Below, piece after piece: positions 342 through 32,025 of a stretch of 32,552 nt of DNA (positions are counted from its first letter, which is position 1; every line of letters begins with the position of its first letter). The DNA is from Deltaproteobacteria bacterium (lineage in GTDB: Bacteria; Desulfobacterota; Desulfobacteria; Desulfobacterales; Desulfosarcinaceae): assembly GCA_021824175.1 (NCBI GenBank), contig JAKALP010000047.1, positions 1-32,552 of the forward strand, written 5' to 3'. The notes beneath the pieces are model-generated. The model had not been told where the DNA came from, did not search any database, and saw nothing but the letters and a program-made list of their open reading frames with translations. A program made the position numbers and the translations under genes.

Positions 342-1429
342 TGGGGTCACATCTTAAATATTAAATATTGACAATTCCGCATTCATCCCATATCAATAGC
401 CATTGCTTGTCGAATTCAATTTATTAAAGCTGGAAAACCTATATGGCAAGACCCTTGCGAGTTGAGTATGCGGGTGCTTTTTATCATGTGATGAACCGCG
501 GCAACCGGAGTGAAGATATTTTCCTGAGCCCCTATGATAGAGAAAAATTCTTCGATTATCTGGCAACCATCGTCGAACGCTTCTCGATTAAAGTGCACAC
601 CTACTGTCTGATGACCAATCACTATCATTTGTTGGTCGAAACCGCGCAGCCCAATTTGAGTGCCGCGATCAAATGGCTGAATGGAAGCTATGCAACTTAC
701 ACCAATACCAAACGTCAAAAGTGGGGACACCTTTTTCAGGGGCGGTTTAAATCCATTTTGGTGCAAGCCGACGAATACTTGAAGCATCTTTCTCGCTATA
801 TTCATCTCAATCCGGTAAGGGCCAAACTGAGCGCACACCCGTCCGAGTACCCGTGGAGCAGTTATTCGGCCTATATCGGTAAAACACAACCGCCCGAATG
901 GCTTGAAACCAAGTGGCTGTTATCATGTTTTGGCAAGAGCCAAAAGGAAAGCAGGGATAATTACAAGCTCTTTGTCGAAGGCGCGGACGCCATGGCGGTC
1001 AAAAACCCTTTCGAGGATGTTACGGGTGGTTTGATTTTAGGCGATCCTGATTTTGTTGAATGGGTGAAGAAGACCTTTCTAACTGAAAAAAACGAAAGCG
1101 GCGAACTTCCCCAACTCAAACGATTAAAACCAAAACTTACACCGGAAGCAATCGTCGAAGAGGTGTGCAGGGAATTTCGTGCTGAGACAGATAAGGTAAT
1201 CGGCAAAGGAGCTAAGCTTAATGTTGCTCGAGACCTCGCCATTTATCTTTCCAAACAGTATGGTGGAGAAACTTGCAAGGCATTGGGCGAATATTATGGA
1301 CAAGTATCGGGGGCGGCCATTACCATGGCATACAATCGGATACAGACAGCCATTCTTTCCGACAAAGGACTGAAGCGGCGATTGAGTCGGATTCAAAAGC
1401 GAATATTGAATATTTAAGATGTGACCCCA
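342..1429 (+). mobile_element. RAYT element bounded by a 28-bp inverted repeat
   Basis: The left end (342-369, starting TGGGGTCACATCTTAAATATT) is matched in inverse orientation by the right end (1402-1429, ending AAGATGTGACCCCA). There is a single mismatch in 28 positions. The pair encloses one Y1-type REP-associated transposase gene. The right arm overlaps the 3' end of that gene and its stop codon. No target duplication is obvious at the outer edges. Y1/HUH transposases do not need terminal inverted repeats of the DDE kind, so the arms may instead be REP-like hairpins recognised by the transposase. The right edge lies 4 bp before the Shine-Dalgarno of the next gene. Confidence 0.75.
443..1417 (+). 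CDS. REP-associated tyrosine (Y1/HUH) transposase, RAYT
   Basis: A 324-aa protein of the TnpA_REP (IS200-like Y1) family, single-strand DNA endonucleases that recognise REP-type hairpins. It opens with the family start MARPLRVEYAGAFYHVMNRG. The metal-binding HUH pair is His60-Tyr-His62 in the segment MTNHYHLL, and the RYIHLNPVRA segment near residues 118-127 is diagnostic. Tyr112, just before it, is a candidate nucleophile. Residues from about 230 onward look like an added DnaA-type or helix-turn-helix DNA-binding tail, common in long RAYTs. The catalytic residues look intact, so it may still be active. The ribosome binding site before the ATG at 443 is weak. Its stop codon lies within the right inverted-repeat arm. 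Confidence 0.9.
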   Translation: MARPLRVEYAGAFYHVMNRGNRSEDIFLSPYDREKFFDYLATIVERFSIKVHTYCLMTNHYHLLVETAQPNLSAAIKWLNGSYATYTNTKRQKWGHLFQGRFKSILVQADEYLKHLSRYIHLNPVRAKLSAHPSEYPWSSYSAYIGKTQPPEWLETKWLLSCFGKSQKESRDNYKLFVEGADAMAVKNPFEDVTGGLILGDPDFVEWVKKTFLTEKNESGELPQLKRLKPKLTPEAIVEEVCREFRAETDKVIGKGAKLNVARDLAIYLSKQYGGETCKALGEYYGQVSGAAITMAYNRIQTAILSDKGLKRRLSRIQKRILNI

Positions 1430-24757: not shown

Positions 24758-24770
24758 CATGGAGCAGCCC

Positions 24771-26069
24771 ATGGCATCCAATGAATACAAAGACTGCCTC
24801 GAGAAAATGTTCCGGCTTCATCGGTTTGGTATCAAGCTAGGGCTGGACACCATCCGGGCCATGTTGGCCGCCCTGGGCAATCCCCAAGATCATTTTCAAT
24901 GCATTCATATCGCCGGCACCAACGGCAAAGGTTCCGTGGCCGCAATGCTTTCGACGATCTTGAAAACCGCCGGTTATAAGGTAGGCCGCTATACCTCTCC
25001 CCACCTGGAAAGCTTCAATGAAAGAATCTGCATCAACGATGAGCCCATCGATGATGCATGCGTGGTTCGGTCCTGCCAGCGCTCCATGGCCGTACAGGGT
25101 TTGGAACGGCAACCGACCTTTTTTGAGTTTACCACCGCCATGGCGCTGGACGAATTCAGCCGCCATCAGGTGCAATGGGCCGTCATCGAGACCGGCATGG
25201 GTGGCCGTCTGGATGCCACCAATATATTGACTCCGGCCCTATCAATCATCACCAATATTTCCCTGGAACACCGCAATTACCTTGGCCGGGACATTGCTAC
25301 CATTGCCGGTGAGAAAGCCGGCATCATCAAGCCTGGTGTGCCGGTAATTACCGGGGTGCACCAGCAGGCGGCCCGGAAGGCCATTGAGCGACAGGCATTG
25401 GTGAATCAGGCCACGGTTTATTGGTATGGCAAGGAGTTTCGCAGTCGGCGAGCATCCACCGGCCGTTTTCATTACAATGGAGTACGAAACAGCTGGCGTG
25501 GTTTACAACTCGGGTTGATTGGGGATCACCAGATAGAAAACACCTCACTGGTATTGGCGGCCTGCGAGCAACTTATGGCCCAGGGTAGTGTTAATCTCAC
25601 CGAAGACCACATCCGCAGCGGTATAAAGAACACCCGCTGGCCGGGCCGCCTCGAAGTGGTCTTGTCCGAACCCCTGGTCATCCTGGACGGTGCCCATAAT
25701 CTCATGTCGGCCCGCGTTTTGGGGCGTCATTTAAGTCGGTATTACAATAACAGAAAAATTACCCTAGTCGTAGGCATCCTAGATGACAAGCCGTATCGAA
25801 ATATCCTTAAAGATCTCCTTGCCCCTTGCCACCGGGTCATTATCACCCAACCTAAAATCGACCGGGCCATCCCTGCCCCTCGTCTGGCATCGGTTGCCGC
25901 GACCCTGCACCCCCAAATCGAAATCAAGGAAGATGTGGGAGCGGCCCTGATTCATGCGTTGACCACCTGTGGCAACGACGAGGTGATCTGTGTGGCCGGA
26001 TCATTATATGTGGTCGGTGAAGCAAAAACCGCCTTAAGAGAATGGCGGACAAGATCAACGGATCAGTGA
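24771..26069 (+). CDS. folC: Bifunctional folylpolyglutamate / dihydrofolate synthase
   Basis: A 432-aa Mur-ligase-type ATP-dependent enzyme that adds glutamate to dihydropteroate and tetrahydrofolate. The P-loop G-T-N-G-K-G-S is at 49-55. Other marks are Y-T-S-P-H-L-E-S-F-N-E-R-I, F-F-E-F-T-T-A-M-A, E-T-G-M-G-G-R-L-D-A-T-N, and the C-terminal-domain I-L-D-G-A-H-N. I chose ATG 24771 because GGAG lies 6 nt upstream; the ATG at 24759 falls at the end of the terminator T-run and has no RBS. How it is transcribed past the terminator is not evident; the promoter may lie in the short gap. tRNA-Arg follows 57 bp downstream. Confidence 0.95.
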   Translation: MASNEYKDCLEKMFRLHRFGIKLGLDTIRAMLAALGNPQDHFQCIHIAGTNGKGSVAAMLSTILKTAGYKVGRYTSPHLESFNERICINDEPIDDACVVRSCQRSMAVQGLERQPTFFEFTTAMALDEFSRHQVQWAVIETGMGGRLDATNILTPALSIITNISLEHRNYLGRDIATIAGEKAGIIKPGVPVITGVHQQAARKAIERQALVNQATVYWYGKEFRSRRASTGRFHYNGVRNSWRGLQLGLIGDHQIENTSLVLAACEQLMAQGSVNLTEDHIRSGIKNTRWPGRLEVVLSEPLVILDGAHNLMSARVLGRHLSRYYNNRKITLVVGILDDKPYRNILKDLLAPCHRVIITQPKIDRAIPAPRLASVAATLHPQIEIKEDVGAALIHALTTCGNDEVICVAGSLYVVGEAKTALREWRTRSTDQ

Positions 26070-26126: not shown

Positions 26127-26202
26127 GCGCCCGTAGCTCAGTGGATAGAGCACCAGCCTCCGGAGCTGGGTGTCGCGCGTTCGATCCGCGCCGGGCGCAC
26201 CA
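26127..26202 (+). tRNA. tRNA-Arg (anticodon CCG)
   Basis: A complete 76-nt cloverleaf. The acceptor stem is GCGCCCG with CGGGCGC. The D-arm contains AGCTCAGTGGATAGAGC. The anticodon stem is CCAGC/GCTGG around the loop CTCCGGA (anticodon CCG, reading CGG). The T-arm contains GTTCGATCC. The discriminator is A, and the terminal CCA is encoded (26200-26202). It reads Arg codon CGG. Confidence 0.97.
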
Positions 26203-26668: not shown

Positions 26669-26983
26669 ATGTATGAAAGGGTGCATTCACCAATGCAAAC
26701 TTTCGACCCCCCCTGCTTGAAAATCCTTGGACTACTCTACGCCCTACCTGGAGAGCCCATTCCCGATTCAAACCGCGATGATGCATTCTACTTACTTAAA
26801 CATTTTGGCTTTATTAACGAAACAAAAGAAGAATGCAAGATTACACCAATCGGCACGGCCTATTACCTTGCACAAATGTATATTAGAGAGCTAGAGGCCA
26901 TGTTCAAGATCCATCGCAAAGCTCAGGCTCGATCAGAGCCTAAACGACGTTTTGCGGATTTGGATATTTGTTGGTTTGATTGA
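26669..26983 (+). CDS. Orphan 104-aa protein, winged-helix-like
   Basis: I do not recognise this protein. It is soluble, with an N-terminal helical region (L-K-I-L-G-L-L-Y-A-L-P), then D-D-A-F-Y-L-L-K-H-F-G-F-I-N and C-K-I-T-P-I-G-T-A-Y-Y-L-A, a helix-turn-strand pattern compatible with a winged-helix domain, and a basic C-terminus. The start is uncertain: ATG 26669 or ATG 26693, neither with a good RBS. It stands alone on the plus strand in an AT-richer patch between tRNA-Arg and the lipid-sugar cluster, convergent with the latter, so recent acquisition is plausible. It could also be a chance ORF. Confidence 0.45.
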   Translation: MYERVHSPMQTFDPPCLKILGLLYALPGEPIPDSNRDDAFYLLKHFGFINETKEECKITPIGTAYYLAQMYIRELEAMFKIHRKAQARSEPKRRFADLDICWFD

Positions 26984-27018: not shown

Positions 27019-27756
27019 TCATAGACTCATTTTTTTAAAAAACGGTTCGGGGATGCTTTTGATGATGGCCATAATCCAGCGCCAGAACCATAGGGTGTAA
27101 ATTAGATTCTTTGATTTTAAGTAAGCCTTGAAAATGTCATTGGCCACGTCGTCGGGCGATGCCGTGAGCAGGCCAGGCAGCTGTAAATGGCGATTCATTT
27201 TGGTGTTAATGAATCCCGGCAGCACGGTGAGCACATGCACTTGGCTTTTGAACAGCCGATTGCGCAGTCCGCTCAGGTAAGCGGTCAGGGCCGCTTTGGA
27301 GGCGCCGTAGATGTAATTGCTCTGCCGGCCGCGCTCGCCGGCCACGGAACTGATGCCGATAATGATGCCCTGGCGCCGGCGTTCGAAATCCGCGGCCACT
27401 ACTTCCAGAATGCTCACTGCCCCGCTGAAGTTCGAGTCAATGATACGGTGGGCTTCTTCGAAACTGGACTGGGCGTTCTGTTGATCGCCCAACAGGCCGA
27501 AGGCCAGAACCACAATGTCAGGTTTGGGATCGAGCTGTTGATAAAAACGCGCGTGGCTGGTGTAATCCAAGGCGTTGAAGACTACTGCTTTCACCGGTAT
27601 GTCGTACCGCACCTGAATATCGTTGGCATTGCGCTCCAGCAGCTCCAGGTCGCGGGAGGCCAGACAGAGGGAAGAAATCATTTTACTTTGGGCAAACCGT
27701 CTGGCGGTTGCCATGGCCACATCGGAATTGGCACCCAAGATGGTCAGATTCATCAT
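27019..27756 (-). CDS. DprE2-like SDR: keto-pentose reductase on polyprenyl phosphate
   Basis: A 245-aa short-chain dehydrogenase. Family marks: N-terminal L-T-I-L-G-A-N-S-D-V-A, catalytic Ser137 in G-I-S-S-V-A-G, Tyr150 and Lys154 in Y-G-A-S-K. It resembles mycobacterial DprE2 (Rv3791) in specific blocks: V-V-L-A-F-G-L-L-G-D, S-S-V-A-G-E-R-G-R-Q-S-N-Y-I-Y-G and the C-terminal I-P-E-P-F-F-K-K anchor. DprE2 reduces decaprenylphosphoryl-2-keto-ribose to the arabinose form, completing epimerisation begun by DprE1. The start ATG overlaps the stop of the upstream FAD oxidase (TAATG), so the two are translationally coupled, as expected for a two-enzyme epimerase. The lipid length and the final sugar are inferred. 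It is the last gene of the cluster. Confidence 0.85.
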   Translation of the reverse strand: MMNLTILGANSDVAMATARRFAQSKMISSLCLASRDLELLERNANDIQVRYDIPVKAVVFNALDYTSHARFYQQLDPKPDIVVLAFGLLGDQQNAQSSFEEAHRIIDSNFSGAVSILEVVAADFERRRQGIIIGISSVAGERGRQSNYIYGASKAALTAYLSGLRNRLFKSQVHVLTVLPGFINTKMNRHLQLPGLLTASPDDVANDIFKAYLKSKNLIYTLWFWRWIMAIIKSIPEPFFKKMSL

Positions 27757-29054
27757 TATAATCCTATTCGTTTAGATTGCCAGGAGTTGAACTTCTTCTT
27801 CATGCCATACTGCGTGCGAAGATCTTGAAACTCTCGCCAACGCGGGTACCCCTGCATAAACATTGCCTCGCTCATGCGGCTGTCCTTAGTGAGATAAAGG
27901 CGGCCGTCGTGTTCGAGCACAATACGATCCAGCCGCTCCAGTAGCCCGAAGAGTTTGGGTTGAATCTTAAAATCCAGCGCCAGCGTATATCCCTCCATGG
28001 GAAAGGAGAGAAAATTTTCATTCTGGGGACCGAAGAGTTTAATCACCGCCAGAAATGACCCCATCCCGGCCGCTGAAATCTGTTGGAGCAAGGCCTTCAT
28101 CCCCTTGTAACTGGTCGCCATGGGCAGAACGCACTGGTATTGAACGAAACCGGCCTTGCCATACATTCGGTTCCAATGATCAATTTTATCCAGGGGGTAG
28201 AAAAAGGTCTCCAAGGGCACTCGCTGTCTTTGGGCCGGCTTACCTTTCACACGGTAGTAAATCTGATTGAACATGCTGAGGGTGTAGTTATTCAACAAAA
28301 ATGAAGGGCAGGTCACCGGCACCGACAACCGTTTGGCTTCGGGCAGTGTAAGCTCTCCATCGTCGTCATGATCCCCCACCATAAGAATTGATCGTCCCAG
28401 ACTGCTGCCGCCGGCCAAGCAGTCAATCCAGGCCACTGAATAAGGATAATGGCTGCAGCGATCATACTGGACAAAGACCTCATCCAAATTGGCGCAAGGG
28501 ATGATGTTTTCGCGGATATAGGCGCTGTTGACCGCCTTGAGTTGCAAGGTGGCATCTAAAATTACACCCGTCAACCCCATACCGCCGCAGGTGGCGCGAA
28601 AGAGCGGGACATTTTCTTCTCGACTGCATGAAGCAATAGTGCCATCGGGCAGCATGAGTCGCAGGGAGATCACCGATTCGCTGAAGCATCCCTCGGCATG
28701 GTGGTTCTTACCGTGCACATCGCTGGCAATAGCGCCGCCGACGCTGATCAATTTAGTACCGGGGGTAACTTTGAGAAACCAGCCTCTGGGAAGAAACAAG
28801 TCGATCAACTCAGCCAGGGTGATGCCGCATTCGCAGGTCACCACCCCGGTTTGCGCATCAAAATCAATGAGCTTGTTATACTCCTGGGTCAACAGCACAT
28901 GGGGTGCCAGAGCACTGTCCCCATAACTTTTGCCTTGGCCATAGGCGATCCAATCGTCGCCAGCGGAAAGCAAAGCAGCCGCGGTTGATCGTTTCTCGAA
29001 AAGATGTGCCGCGCATTCGATGATGGGATAACACCCCCAACCGGACAGTTTCAT
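27756..29054 (-). CDS. DprE1-like FAD-dependent oxidase: polyprenylphosphoryl-ribose 2'-oxidase
   Basis: A 432-aa VAO/PCMH-type flavoenzyme. N-terminal FAD domain: G-Q-G-K-S-Y-G-D-S (40-48), P-G-T-K-L-I-S-V-G-G-A-I-A-S-D-V-H-G-K-N-H-H (98-119) and M-G-L-T-G-V-I-L. The C-terminal cap has K-L-F-G-P-Q-N and Y-L-T-K390-D-S-R. These are the blocks of mycobacterial DprE1 (Rv3790). The position of the benzothiazinone-reactive Cys387 is Ala359 here (T-L-A-L-D-F). The likely reaction is oxidation of the ribosyl 2'-OH. I set the start at ATG 29054 because GAAGGAG lies 5 nt upstream; the longer frame to 29123 would overlap the UbiA gene. It lies 34 bp after the UbiA gene and is coupled to the reductase. 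Confidence 0.88.
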   Translation of the reverse strand: MKLSGWGCYPIIECAAHLFEKRSTAAALLSAGDDWIAYGQGKSYGDSALAPHVLLTQEYNKLIDFDAQTGVVTCECGITLAELIDLFLPRGWFLKVTPGTKLISVGGAIASDVHGKNHHAEGCFSESVISLRLMLPDGTIASCSREENVPLFRATCGGMGLTGVILDATLQLKAVNSAYIRENIIPCANLDEVFVQYDRCSHYPYSVAWIDCLAGGSSLGRSILMVGDHDDDGELTLPEAKRLSVPVTCPSFLLNNYTLSMFNQIYYRVKGKPAQRQRVPLETFFYPLDKIDHWNRMYGKAGFVQYQCVLPMATSYKGMKALLQQISAAGMGSFLAVIKLFGPQNENFLSFPMEGYTLALDFKIQPKLFGLLERLDRIVLEHDGRLYLTKDSRMSEAMFMQGYPRWREFQDLRTQYGMKKKFNSWQSKRIGL

Positions 29055-29088
29055 GATTCTCCTTCTATTCCCATCTTCGCTCGAAAGG

Positions 29089-29970
29089 TCATAGGGTCCG
29101 CCAACGCAAAAGCGCATAGGCATTGAGCAGCCAAAGCAAAACGATGGCTTGAAGCATTCGGTCCTTTAGAAAAACAAGCGTGGGTGATCCGCTCTTCTGG
29201 TCCACAAAAGTAATTTGGAGGTAGCGCAGCAGACCGCAGACAACCCAGAACCCAGTGATATACATATACTCCCCGTGGAGAGCGATCACAGCCGGTGAAA
29301 CAGTGTAAAGAATGTAGGCCACAATGGTAACCGAAGCCATCACGCCCATGGCCAGGGAGATAAAATCGGCGTTATACCCATCAATGGCCTTTCGCACCTG
29401 GTGGCCTTGATTTAGCAGAAGCAAATCATCCTTGCGCTTGGCCAGGGCCAGGAAGAGCGCCAGCAGAAAAGTCATAATTACGATCCAGGGGCTGATGGGG
29501 ATTTCGGCCGCCTGCCCGCCCACGAAGATGCGCATCACAAATCCCAGGGAGATGCAGATGATGTCGATAATGGGTAGATGTTTGAGGTAGAGAGAATAAG
29601 AGACGTTGAGCAAGAAATATGCGATCATGATGAATAAAACCGGTCTGGGCAACCACAACCCACTTAAAGCCAAGGATGCCGTGATCAATACCAAGAAGAG
29701 AAACAGGGCTTCTTTGATATACACCCGACCGCTGGCGATGGGCCGTTTCTTTTTTACCGGATGATTTCGGTCATCGGCCACATCGCGGATATCGTTGAGA
29801 ACATAAATGGCACTGGCCATCAAACAGAAGGCACCAAAAGCAATGGCCGCGGGGATTATCGCGGCGATGTTGGTCATTTGATTGGCAAAGAGCAAAGGCA
29901 ACCAGATAAAGCCGTTCTTGATGTATTGATGCGGTCGCATCAGCTTGGCATAAGCAGTCAGTTTGTTCAT
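29089..29970 (-). CDS. UbiA-type polyprenyl-phosphate phosphoribosyltransferase (DPPR-synthase-like)
   Basis: A 293-aa multi-pass membrane prenyltransferase-fold enzyme. The first Asp motif is N59-D60-x-x-D63-x-x-x-D67 in Y-V-L-N-D-I-R-D-V-A-D-D; it is followed by H-P-V-K-K-K-R-P-I-A-S-G. The second is Y128-x-K130-H-L-P-I-I-D136. These details (HPxKxxRPIA, LKHxxxxD) match mycobacterial Rv3806c, which transfers 5-phosphoribose from PRPP to decaprenyl phosphate, better than menaquinone- or heme-type UbiA enzymes. About eight or nine hydrophobic helices are visible. It begins 9 bp after the thioesterase and is followed by the DprE1-like gene. It probably commits polyprenyl phosphate to the pentose pathway. 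Confidence 0.87.
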   Translation of the reverse strand: MNKLTAYAKLMRPHQYIKNGFIWLPLLFANQMTNIAAIIPAAIAFGAFCLMASAIYVLNDIRDVADDRNHPVKKKRPIASGRVYIKEALFLFLVLITASLALSGLWLPRPVLFIMIAYFLLNVSYSLYLKHLPIIDIICISLGFVMRIFVGGQAAEIPISPWIVIMTFLLALFLALAKRKDDLLLLNQGHQVRKAIDGYNADFISLAMGVMASVTIVAYILYTVSPAVIALHGEYMYITGFWVVCGLLRYLQITFVDQKSGSPTLVFLKDRMLQAIVLLWLLNAYALLRWRTL

Positions 29971-29979
29971 GGATGGGGC

Positions 29980-30423
29980 TCACGATTTTTGAAGAATCAT
30001 AAAAGTCGCCATCCCTTTGGCGACCAGCTCGCCCTCTTCGGAGCGAATGCTCACTTCACCCACGGCCAGACGCGAACCTTTCTGTACAATCACCGCTTCG
30101 GCCATGATAGCGCCGCGATCAAAGGGTTTCAGATAATTGATTTTCATCTCCAGTGTAACCATGGTTTCATCACGGCCGATGAGGCCAACCAGAGCCATGG
30201 CCACGGCCGCATCCGCAGTGGAAAAGGTAGCCCCGCCATGGGCGATGCCGTCGGCCTGGGTCAACTTTTTGTCAAAGGGCAAACGCACAATGGCCCACCC
30301 TTTTTTGATATCGTGTAACTCTAGTCCCAAAAGCCCCCAGAACGGATGGACGGATGGCGCCTTCTGAATCAAGGCCTTTTTGAAATTGGGGGATATTTCT
30401 TCAAATTGGCTGTTATCGACCAT
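29980..30423 (-). CDS. PaaI-family hotdog thioesterase
   Basis: A 147-aa single hotdog-fold acyl-CoA thioesterase. Family marks: P-F-W-G-L-L-G-L-E-L (28-37), H62-G-G-A-T-F-S-T-A-D71 with the active-site region, N-Y-L-K-P, and V-I-V-Q-K-G-S-R-L-A-V-G-E-V. The likely substrate is a small or aromatic acyl-CoA. The RBS GAGG lies 7 nt before the ATG. It sits 9 bp before the UbiA gene; its relation to the pentose pathway is not obvious. Confidence 0.85.
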   Translation of the reverse strand: MVDNSQFEEISPNFKKALIQKAPSVHPFWGLLGLELHDIKKGWAIVRLPFDKKLTQADGIAHGGATFSTADAAVAMALVGLIGRDETMVTLEMKINYLKPFDRGAIMAEAVIVQKGSRLAVGEVSIRSEEGELVAKGMATFMILQKS

Positions 30424-30598: not shown

Positions 30599-31120
30599 TC
30601 ATGATGATACAGCGCTTCGCTCCACCTTTAGGGTCATGTCCAGAATGGAGTTCCGGAATTCATTATACTGGTGTTCGGAAAACTCTCCAGTCAGAATCCA
30701 CTCCAACGCATAATGGACACCCAAATAGTCATAGCTGTAAATGCCAAATGTGTTACGCAACACATCAATGGCGCTTCGACATAAAAAAGATAGACAGACT
30801 GGACTCTTGTGGGTCGCCAGCACACATCCTTTGGCCGGATTATGATAAGGACAGGGTGAAACCGGATCGTTCCAATGGTATTGCTCCGGTTTGCCAAAGA
30901 GGAGTTCCCTCTCCCGCCGCAACAGCTCAAAGGCCGGATGATCCAAATCATATAGCGCGTAGTATTTCTTGGTGCAGCAGGCGGCCGTGGGCTTATGGCC
31001 GCTATTTTGGATCTCAGGTGTAATGCATCTTGGCAGACAATAGTCAAACGTGGCGAAAAAGGCGTTGAGCAGCCGTTCGATCTCCAGATATCGTCTTATA
31101 TCTCTATCTATCGTCCTCAT
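30599..31120 (-). CDS. Cys-rich protein resembling YkgJ/UPF0153 cysteine-cluster proteins
   Basis: A 173-aa soluble protein with eight cysteines: C28-x3-C32, C48-C49, then C90-x8-C99-x9-C109-x4-C114. The last set (C-P-Y-H-N-P-A-K-G-C-V, then K-S-P-V-C-L-S-F-L-C) resembles the YkgJ/UPF0153 arrangement thought to hold zinc or an iron-sulfur cluster. ATG 31120 has a GAAGAAG-type RBS and starts at the ordered part. A longer frame starts at ATG 31270, overlapping the PAP2 stop in an ATGA junction with GGAG immediately before it; either could be used. It lies between the PAP2 and thioesterase genes. Function is unknown. Confidence 0.7.
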   Translation of the reverse strand: MRTIDRDIRRYLEIERLLNAFFATFDYCLPRCITPEIQNSGHKPTAACCTKKYYALYDLDHPAFELLRRERELLFGKPEQYHWNDPVSPCPYHNPAKGCVLATHKSPVCLSFLCRSAIDVLRNTFGIYSYDYLGVHYALEWILTGEFSEHQYNEFRNSILDMTLKVERSAVSS

Positions 31121-31266
31121 TAAAAACTCTTCTTCGGGAAATCTTCGCAGGCCAGAGGCTTTTATCAGCTCTTGGGGTGGGAACGATTGGTGCCTATGCC
31201 GTGTCGCTATGCGCCCGCAATCAATCCGCTGTGCAGCCATCCGTTTAATTTTTGGAATTGCTGGAA

Positions 31267-31920
31267 TCATCTCCTATCAGGGGATAGTTTGCGTTCTACC
31301 ATCAAGTAGTACACACCGCTGGCAATGGCGGCACCGCCCACAATATCCATGAGAACATGTTGTTTGACAAACAGGATTCCCACCGCGGTGATAACGAACA
31401 TGAGGTAAAAAATTGCCCCGAGCCAACGGTTTTGACGGTACATAATCATGGCCGCCAGCAGTGAGGTGGAGACATGCAGGCTGGGGAAGCCGCATACCGG
31501 GCGATCCGTGGTATACATGGCGGCCACCAATCGCTCGGAAAGGTTGTTGGCCACAAAGTCGGGTCGCGGTACCTGCACCGGGATCAGGATGAACAGCAGG
31601 ACCGAACCCAGGATGAGCACCATAAAGGCATATGCCATGGCCCATAGCAGTTTGCGATCCTTGATCATAAAGGCCGGCAGTACCAACATGCCATATAAAA
31701 CCCAGATCGGGTAAATAAACGCAGGAATAAAACGGGTGGCGCGATCAAAAGGGGTCGAGAAGTCGAAGGCCTCCGCTACATTTATGAATCGATTGGCCGA
31801 CAAATAGGCGATCAGGAAAAATCCATATACGAGGAACACCAATCCCAGGCGTTCTTTTAATGAGATCCCAGCGGCACCATCGGTCGAGGACAAGCAAGTT
31901 GTATCTGCAGTTTCGGGCAT
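31267..31920 (-). CDS. PAP2-superfamily membrane phosphatase
   Basis: A 217-aa integral membrane protein with about six helices. PAP2 motifs: V-P-R119-P-D (C1-like), F-P-S-L-H149-V-S (C2), and F-V-K-Q-H188-V-L-M-D192 (C3, with Lys for the usual Arg at its start). The pattern is close to the AUR1/inositolphosphorylceramide-synthase-like subfamily, so a phosphotransferase is also possible. In context it could remove the 5-phosphate from polyprenylphosphoryl-5-phosphoribose, the role assigned to Rv3807c in mycobacteria. I prefer ATG 31920 over GTG 31932; RBS evidence is weak for both. It is the first gene of the cluster. Confidence 0.8.
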   Translation of the reverse strand: MPETADTTCLSSTDGAAGISLKERLGLVFLVYGFFLIAYLSANRFINVAEAFDFSTPFDRATRFIPAFIYPIWVLYGMLVLPAFMIKDRKLLWAMAYAFMVLILGSVLLFILIPVQVPRPDFVANNLSERLVAAMYTTDRPVCGFPSLHVSTSLLAAMIMYRQNRWLGAIFYLMFVITAVGILFVKQHVLMDIVGGAAIASGVYYLMVERKLSPDRR

Positions 31921-32025
31921 TGTTCGCTTCACATTATTTTTGCCAGCATCTCAAAAAACGGATTTGGATTCAAGCCCCCGTTACAAATCACGGGGCTGGC
32001 GCGGGAAAAGTTCAGAAACCTGAGA

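Follow-up and report, generated by a model that had tools for sequence, protein, structure and literature searches.

The stretch analysed here (the window) is 32,552 nucleotides long and makes up the entire contig C19 of a Desulfosarcinaceae genome of 6.07 Mb in 61 contigs. Its minus strand carries three adjacent genes, in the order UbiA, DprE1-like and DprE2-like, which form a real, intact and probably working module for polyprenyl-phospho-D-arabinofuranose. We are fairly confident that this trio makes a lipid-linked D-arabinofuranose donor, later flipped and used by a periplasmic GT-C glycosyltransferase encoded elsewhere in the genome. We infer substrate and product from what was observed, namely homology, conserved residues, the predicted fold of UbiA and gene coupling, and this donor is the best reading because the proteins are of the Rv3806c, DprE1 and DprE2 types in sequence, with the expected residues and UbiA fold. 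In the proposed pathway UbiA would act as the entry enzyme, transferring a phosphoribosyl group from phosphoribosyl pyrophosphate (PRPP) onto polyprenyl phosphate, and a phosphatase outside the trio would take off the 5'-phosphate. DprE1 would then oxidise C2' and DprE2 would re-reduce it, giving polyprenyl-phospho-D-arabinofuranose for flipping and transfer.

The trio and its coupling

29089..29970, minus strand: putative UbiA-superfamily polyprenyl-phosphate 5-phosphoribosyltransferase (Rv3806c / PPPRS type), 293 aa, assigned from sequence, predicted fold and conserved residues
27756..29054, minus strand: DprE1-like flavin adenine dinucleotide (FAD) oxidase, putative polyprenyl-phospho-ribose 2'-oxidase, 432 aa when counted from the more likely ATG
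27019..27756, minus strand: DprE2-like reductase of the short-chain dehydrogenase/reductase (SDR) type, 245 aa, its start overlapping the DprE1 stop

A sequence-only reading of this stretch had described three adjacent minus-strand genes of which the last two are coupled by TAATG; all three frames are indeed intact, and the overlap of the DprE1-like stop with the DprE2-like start was confirmed in the sequence text: ggattaTAATGatg. The open reading frame (ORF) list, which holds 77 ORFs of at least 90 aa, many of them overlapping, gives the DprE1-like frame as 27756-29123 on the minus strand (455 aa). The likelier start is the ATG at 29054, because AAGGAG stands just ahead of it and it agrees with the MKLxxWG start of DprE1 relatives; it would leave a short gap after the UbiA stop.

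Family assignment of the three enzymes

By sequence and by fold, the closest solved relative of UbiA is an Rv3806c-type enzyme. A phmmer search of Protein Data Bank (PDB) chains returned the decaprenyl-phosphate phosphoribosyltransferase 8j8j (E 1.3e-36), and the only two matches at E<=0.001 were both mycobacterial enzymes of this activity. The AlphaFold model (pLDDT 93.1) also has 8j8j as its best match among PDB structures (TM score 0.86, E 3.1e-12, 27% identity in the structural alignment), the best fold match of another kind being 4tq4 (E 4.8e-7, TM 0.72) and archaeal UbiA homologues reaching a TM score of at most 0.73. Across an alignment of 21 proteins, N59, D60, D63 and D67 of the loop II motif NDxxDxxxD are invariant, as is R179 of loop IV; at position 182, whose counterpart in Citrobacter ORF15 is Glu369, the window has Asp where some relatives have Glu. 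The residues corresponding to loop II matter for ORF15 activity, according to PMC11127046. Against three NCBIfam models for decaprenyl-phosphate phosphoribosyltransferase, UbiA passed one (210.9 against a cut-off of 207) and missed two (230.4 against 234 and 150.9 against 474).

The DprE1-like protein matches DprE1 in the PDB (phmmer, E 1.8e-75), and an FAD-binding domain was found when 29 window proteins were scanned against Pfam. Residues aligned to Y60, H132, K134, W230, K367 and K418 of Mycobacterium tuberculosis (Mtb) DprE1 are all retained, and each of the six positions is invariant in 108 distinct DprE1-like proteins; H132, K418 and others among them are active-site residues of DprE1. 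At the position of Mtb Cys387, the benzothiazinone target, the window has Ala (Ala in 106 of the 108, Thr in two), and that of Tyr314 is Phe in the window and in all 108. With the benzothiazinone cysteine replaced throughout this set, covalent DprE1 inhibitors are predicted to fail against such bacteria.

For the DprE2-like protein the top PDB match is DprE2 (21gq_C, E 3.1e-31; the next at 9e-15), and the SDR S-Y-K set is present in its SS and YGASK motifs. Its top NCBIfam match is the general SDR model NF005489, which it passes (325.9 against 267). We file these two proteins as DprE1-like, not as a DprE1 equivalog, and as DprE2-like. The earlier assignment of the trio to a UbiA enzyme with Rv3806c motifs, a DprE1-like oxidase and a DprE2-like reductase is thus upheld by PDB matches and conserved residues, and by the comparison of the predicted UbiA structure to Rv3806c. 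Profile comparison gave a divided answer, with one UbiA model passed but two UbiA models and both the DprE1 and DprE2 equivalogs missed.

Distribution and phylogeny

There is nothing unusual in a Gram-negative carrying such a trio, because DprE1 relatives are common across phyla and the pathway class is already in print (PMC11127046); the window offers a fresh example of a known pathway. The suggestion that a trio outside Actinobacteria is remarkable is not supported. When genome contigs were scanned with the DprE1 of the window, at least 587 relatives turned up, and the best 80 of these cover, by record title, at least nine phyla outside Actinobacteria (Pseudomonadota, Campylobacterota, Thermodesulfobacteriota, Bacteroidota, Chlorobiota, Kiritimatiellota, Nitrospirota, Kryptoniota and Cloacimonetes), together with one Actinobacteria bin and 'Deltaproteobacteria' bins that taxonomy files under Myxococcota. 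At E<=1e-60, DprE1 is matched in 31 of the order's 389 genomes and 26 of the phylum's 395, the window's own genome being counted in both, and in none of 10 other genomes of the same genus, one of which has a contig-end fragment at 39% identity. The distribution is patchy. DprE1 relatives also occur in 64 plasmid records, and the single one opened has a complete UbiA-DprE1-DprE2 trio; among the 25 of 64 records listed, rhizobial plasmid relatives are 40-45% identical to the window DprE1, and these are not shown to be noe genes.

In a tree of 53 DprE1 proteins the window lies inside a 26-row clade from its own order and phylum (97/91) and groups with L014 and L193 (98/93), the bootstrap not having fully settled; a 61-protein tree agrees, supporting a 6-row clade at 99. 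In the 61-protein tree the sister group consists of 11 loci, all with UbiA, 8 with a linked HAD phosphatase and 7 with GtrA. Some of these also have polytopic neighbours, of which four were scanned: those of L027, L029 and L033 have no Pfam match and could be GT-C proteins, and the large one of L024, tried as a GT-C, proved to be an acyltransferase.

The paper of Kelly et al. (2024, PNAS; PMC11127046) shows PPPRS activity, proposes undecaprenyl-phospho-ribofuranose as a common entry, places DprE1/E2 homologues in candidate systems for arabinofuranose (Araf)-bearing glycans and mentions more candidates, from Gram-negatives and Gram-positives as well as from one phage. A literature search for arabinofuranose in Desulfobacterota, judged by titles and abstract openings, gave nothing on point.

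Conserved and variable neighbours

Synteny of the trio was compared in 91 loci, the window included, in which DprE1 was called 84 times, DprE2 81 times and UbiA or a UbiA fusion 73 times, figures that undercount where ORF calling chose an overlapping frame. The 38 loci from the order and phylum (the window, L013-L016, L023 and L181-L212, with L023 and L185 being one sequence) include UbiA in 28, the common HAD phosphatase in none and GtrA in 6, two of which (L201 and L210) belong to the window's clade. Phosphatase, flippase and transferase genes thus vary around a constant UbiA-DprE1-DprE2 core. Trios with no called GT-C, GtrA or HAD alongside recur (L013, L014, L015, L205 and others). Two loci, L203 and L204, have UbiA and DprE1 with no close DprE2, there being just a 33% identical SDR about 4 kb off. 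On a Cloacimonetes contig (L046:9560-12058), matches to DprE1 and DprE2 lie in a single open frame of 832 aa, with UbiA elsewhere in that genome.

A separate phosphatase is expected for the window because phosphatases of differing families adjoin related trios. A common HAD phosphatase lies beside the trio in 36 of the 91 loci (one member scanned), a HAD-IA phosphatase immediately upstream of UbiA in 6 of the 38 (two scanned), and a DUF212 divergent PAP2 beside UbiA in 5 of the 6 loci of its cluster (two scanned). The HAD-IA gene occurs in 10 of 389 genomes, 7 of these with DprE1, and the Fisher p of 1e-6 overstates independence, since six of the ten carriers and five of the seven DprE1-bearing ones are largely family f34 and trio-linked copies served to build the profile.

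Flanking genes of the window

29980..30423, minus strand: hotdog-fold thioesterase, 9 bases upstream of UbiA, same direction
30599..31270, minus strand: cysteine-rich protein of 223 aa, unmatched in Pfam and NCBIfam, whose gene shares 4 bases with the PAP2 gene
31267..31932, minus strand: PAP2-superfamily membrane protein (PAP2_3 46.3 bits, PAP2 34.3 bits)
26669-26983, plus strand: short ORF with no family, downstream of the trio and converging on it
26127-26202, plus strand: tRNA-Arg (ccg), between folC and the trio, the kind of site at which DNA often inserts
24759-26069: folC, beyond the short plus-strand ORF and the tRNA-Arg

The PAP2 protein at 31267-31932 carries PSLH and HxxxD motifs and might, by its position and family alone, be the 5'-phosphatase, an assignment we make only tentatively. 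It has no match at E<=0.001 in the 59 other genomes searched and none in loci L013-L102. As a conserved partner of the trio it was rejected on finding no match in other genomes, and it is kept as a local candidate. A scan of neighbourhood ORFs for PAP2-like motifs, with a pattern that would miss DUF212, found only the window PAP2 and one ORF in L194. In mycobacteria the corresponding gene product, Rv3807c, is a PAP2-type protein. PMC11127046 describes it as unrelated to the HAD-family PRPs.

The hotdog thioesterase is probably a co-directional neighbour outside the pathway; blastp with an E limit of 1e-6 gave no match to it in any of the 90 loci L013-L102. Promoter-like sites (6 found, 7.7 expected, hence at chance level) and terminator-like sites (13 against 7.5 expected) were not used as evidence. 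One ORF at window positions 443-1417 combines an IS200-like Y1 transposase domain with a DnaA C-terminal-like helix-turn-helix that falls below the Pfam cut-off.

Transferases, flippases and the acceptor

The sequence-only reading proposed a search of the flanking genome for a GT-C transferase or a flippase. Three PMT_2 proteins (two on C30, one on C31), one GT87-type protein and one GtrA were found in the genome, but none linked to the trio. What is unusual is how bare the locus is, with flippase, GT-C and HAD phosphatase all missing from the trio's surroundings. The sole GtrA match (C42:246584) lies in a sugar cluster with the GT87-type protein and a GT2 protein that we named GtrB-like by reading; with these neighbours it more likely serves a separate system, and it was rejected as a dedicated flippase.

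Among relatives, a PMT_2 GT-C is no more than one gene away from UbiA or DprE1 in 7 of the 38 loci (6 distinct genomes, all 6 scanned), and a second, related PMT_2 GT-C is found in 6 of the 38 (5 genomes). Four genomes have LptF/LptG-family pairs near DprE1/DprE2 (L181, L183, L187, L192), and the first genes of the L023 locus are LpxB and an ABC exporter, the latter sharing 63% identity with an exporter of the window's own genome in a cluster resembling those for lipopolysaccharide (LPS); its naming as MsbA is a reading by eye. A PMT_2 protein of the window's genome, C30:54999-56585, shares 52-54% identity with the second GT-C of the relatives' loci and has LpxB, PAP2 and GT2 homologues in its vicinity; another PMT_2 comes after an exporter and before heptosyltransferase-like genes (names by reading). 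LPS (lipid A, core or O antigen) is hinted at as arabinose acceptor because the PMT_2 GT-C, the LptF/LptG-family pairs and LpxB with an exporter lie near the pair or trio in some relatives, and this gene linkage makes it a possible acceptor that we would not press. The earlier statement that the acceptor is unknown is true for this genome, but GT-C proteins do exist elsewhere in it and some relatives point to LPS. As a single candidate for the acceptor, LPS is slightly favoured.

A nucleotidyltransferase fusion in relatives

In three relatives, a fusion of a nucleotidyltransferase (NTase) with a GT2 domain stands directly upstream of DprE1, in the slot of UbiA (L182:255-1742, L023:8490-9974, which equals L185, and L187:10365-11876; two of the three scanned). 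A UbiA profile search of 18 chosen genomes found no match at E<=0.001 in G062, G065 and G139, which are 94-97% complete and are these same three relatives; one match or more turned up in each of the remaining 15, those of G773 being weak (best 3.5e-15). Contigs break close to the genes in two of the three. These data are suggestive of the fusion replacing UbiA. Its role as an exclusive replacement is weakened by its presence in four genomes that have both UbiA and DprE1 (G118, G138, G199, G227) and in four others with no DprE1 match at 1e-60 (G046, G110, G168, G299).

A broader scheme, which we consider doubtful, would make DprE1/DprE2 a movable 2'-epimerase module in the window's clade, fed by UbiA through the PRPP route in the window or by the NTase-GT2 fusion in the three relatives. 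In the latter it would epimerise a polyprenyl-phospho-hexose at C2 (e.g. from the glucose to the mannose configuration) and so supply a PMT_2 GT-C whose target is LPS. If true, this would be lipid-level sugar epimerisation by DprE1/E2 outside the pentofuranoses. In any case, the relatives that lack UbiA make acceptance of other lipid-linked sugars by DprE1/E2 testable.

Weighing the alternatives

Several results weigh against the proposed arabinofuranose pathway. The DprE1-like protein has the NCBIfam DprE1 model NF053785 as its best match but stays below its cut-off (379.6 bits against 500), and the DprE2 model NF053786 is the second match of the reductase, also below cut-off (183 bits against 250); NF053785 looks narrow, because only one of 14 control genomes exceeds its cut-off. 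No GT-C is present among the 29 window proteins scanned with Pfam, as the sequence-only reading had said, no search having been aimed at GT136; these proteins also include no linked flippase of the MATE or GtrA type, no genome-wide MATE search having been made. For the GT-C nearest the trio in relatives, no orthologue was seen in the window's genome, where the best of the three PMT_2 proteins is only 23-32% identical to it. The window PAP2 is unmatched in four trio-bearing relatives (G029, G035, G042, G053), and both HAD types were rejected as phosphatases of this genome, the common-type profile giving nothing at E<=0.001 and the HAD-IA search none at E<=1e-25 (7 of 20 first-look candidates scored). 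The LPS linkage is drawn from relatives and not from the window itself, and LPS-type neighbours were seen in only a minority of the 38 loci. Because DprE1/E2 in the three fusion relatives may use a non-UbiA sugar, the pair alone is no proof of arabinose. Biochemical data on any member of the window's DprE1 clade were not found.

The donor could be made as proposed and yet be destined not for LPS but for an exopolysaccharide or the glycan of a protein (pilin, S-layer), which we consider possible but less likely than not. A PilC/GspF-like ORF (named by reading) lies near an own PMT_2 GT-C on C30, the sole GtrA match sits beside GT2 and GT87-type GT-C genes in the C42 sugar cluster, and pilin and Nod factors are reported or proposed as non-LPS acceptors of related systems in PMC11127046 and PMC2443382. 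In some same-clade relatives, however, LptF/LptG-family genes or LpxB lie close to the pair or the trio, not all neighbours there being identified. That DprE1/E2 act on another polyprenyl-phosphate sugar, or that the trio yields a different pentofuranose epimer, is quite improbable: the three same-clade relatives with the fusion in the UbiA slot, where UbiA of this type was not found, speak for it, whereas the window does have UbiA, whose motif residues are invariant and whose best fold match is 8j8j, and DprE1/E2 homologues are linked with Araf in PMC11127046.

The arabinofuranose pathway also has to be set against a recently gained, orphaned cassette that has no working outlet and is heading for loss. 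Ten same-genus genomes have no match at E<=1e-60, linked partners are missing and trios or DprE1 relatives are also found on plasmids. Nevertheless, the frames are intact, the residues are kept, a stop/start overlap joins two of the genes, base composition over the trio shows no shift and stays inside the contig's range, and trios with no called GT-C, GtrA or HAD adjoining them recur in relatives. We therefore consider an orphan improbable. Contamination of the genome bin, listed at 3.44%, could have brought in the trio, the window being a whole contig, but this contig carries the core genes for ribosomal protein S2, Rho, a release factor, DXP reductoisomerase and FGAM synthase, and DprE1 relatives occur in the order at the frequency given above (31/389), which makes a foreign origin very improbable.

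Comparison with known systems

The mycobacterial decaprenylphosphoryl-D-arabinose pathway (Rv3806c DPPRS, Rv3807c, DprE1 Rv3790, DprE2 Rv3791) uses the same three enzyme families with the same expected chemistry, from which the window is distant (27% identity for UbiA), with Ala for Cys387, Phe for Tyr314 and probably a C55 carrier. The term 'decaprenyl' is probably wrong here, undecaprenyl phosphate being expected in typical Gram-negatives according to PMC11127046; polyprenyl-phospho-D-arabinofuranose stands as the best reading. The three-component pentofuranose systems outlined there combine PPPRS with a phosphatase (and an epimerase) to give undecaprenyl-phospho-pentofuranose, with DprE1/E2 homologues in the candidate Araf systems. 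In the characterised Citrobacter locus PPPRS carries a fused PRP domain, and a linked MATE protein and a GT-C of family GT136 are present; none of these three features was seen in the window, GT136 with the limit stated above.

Pseudomonas-type loci differ in having GtrA beside DprE1, as in many plasmid records, and a DUF212 PAP2 beside UbiA. The Pseudomonas type IV pilin D-Araf system and Azorhizobium noeCHOP are related enzyme sets outside Actinobacteria whose acceptors are pilin and Nod factor, respectively. The window and its relatives add a clade to the D-arabinofuranose pathway, and neighbours in several members suggest LPS as the destination.

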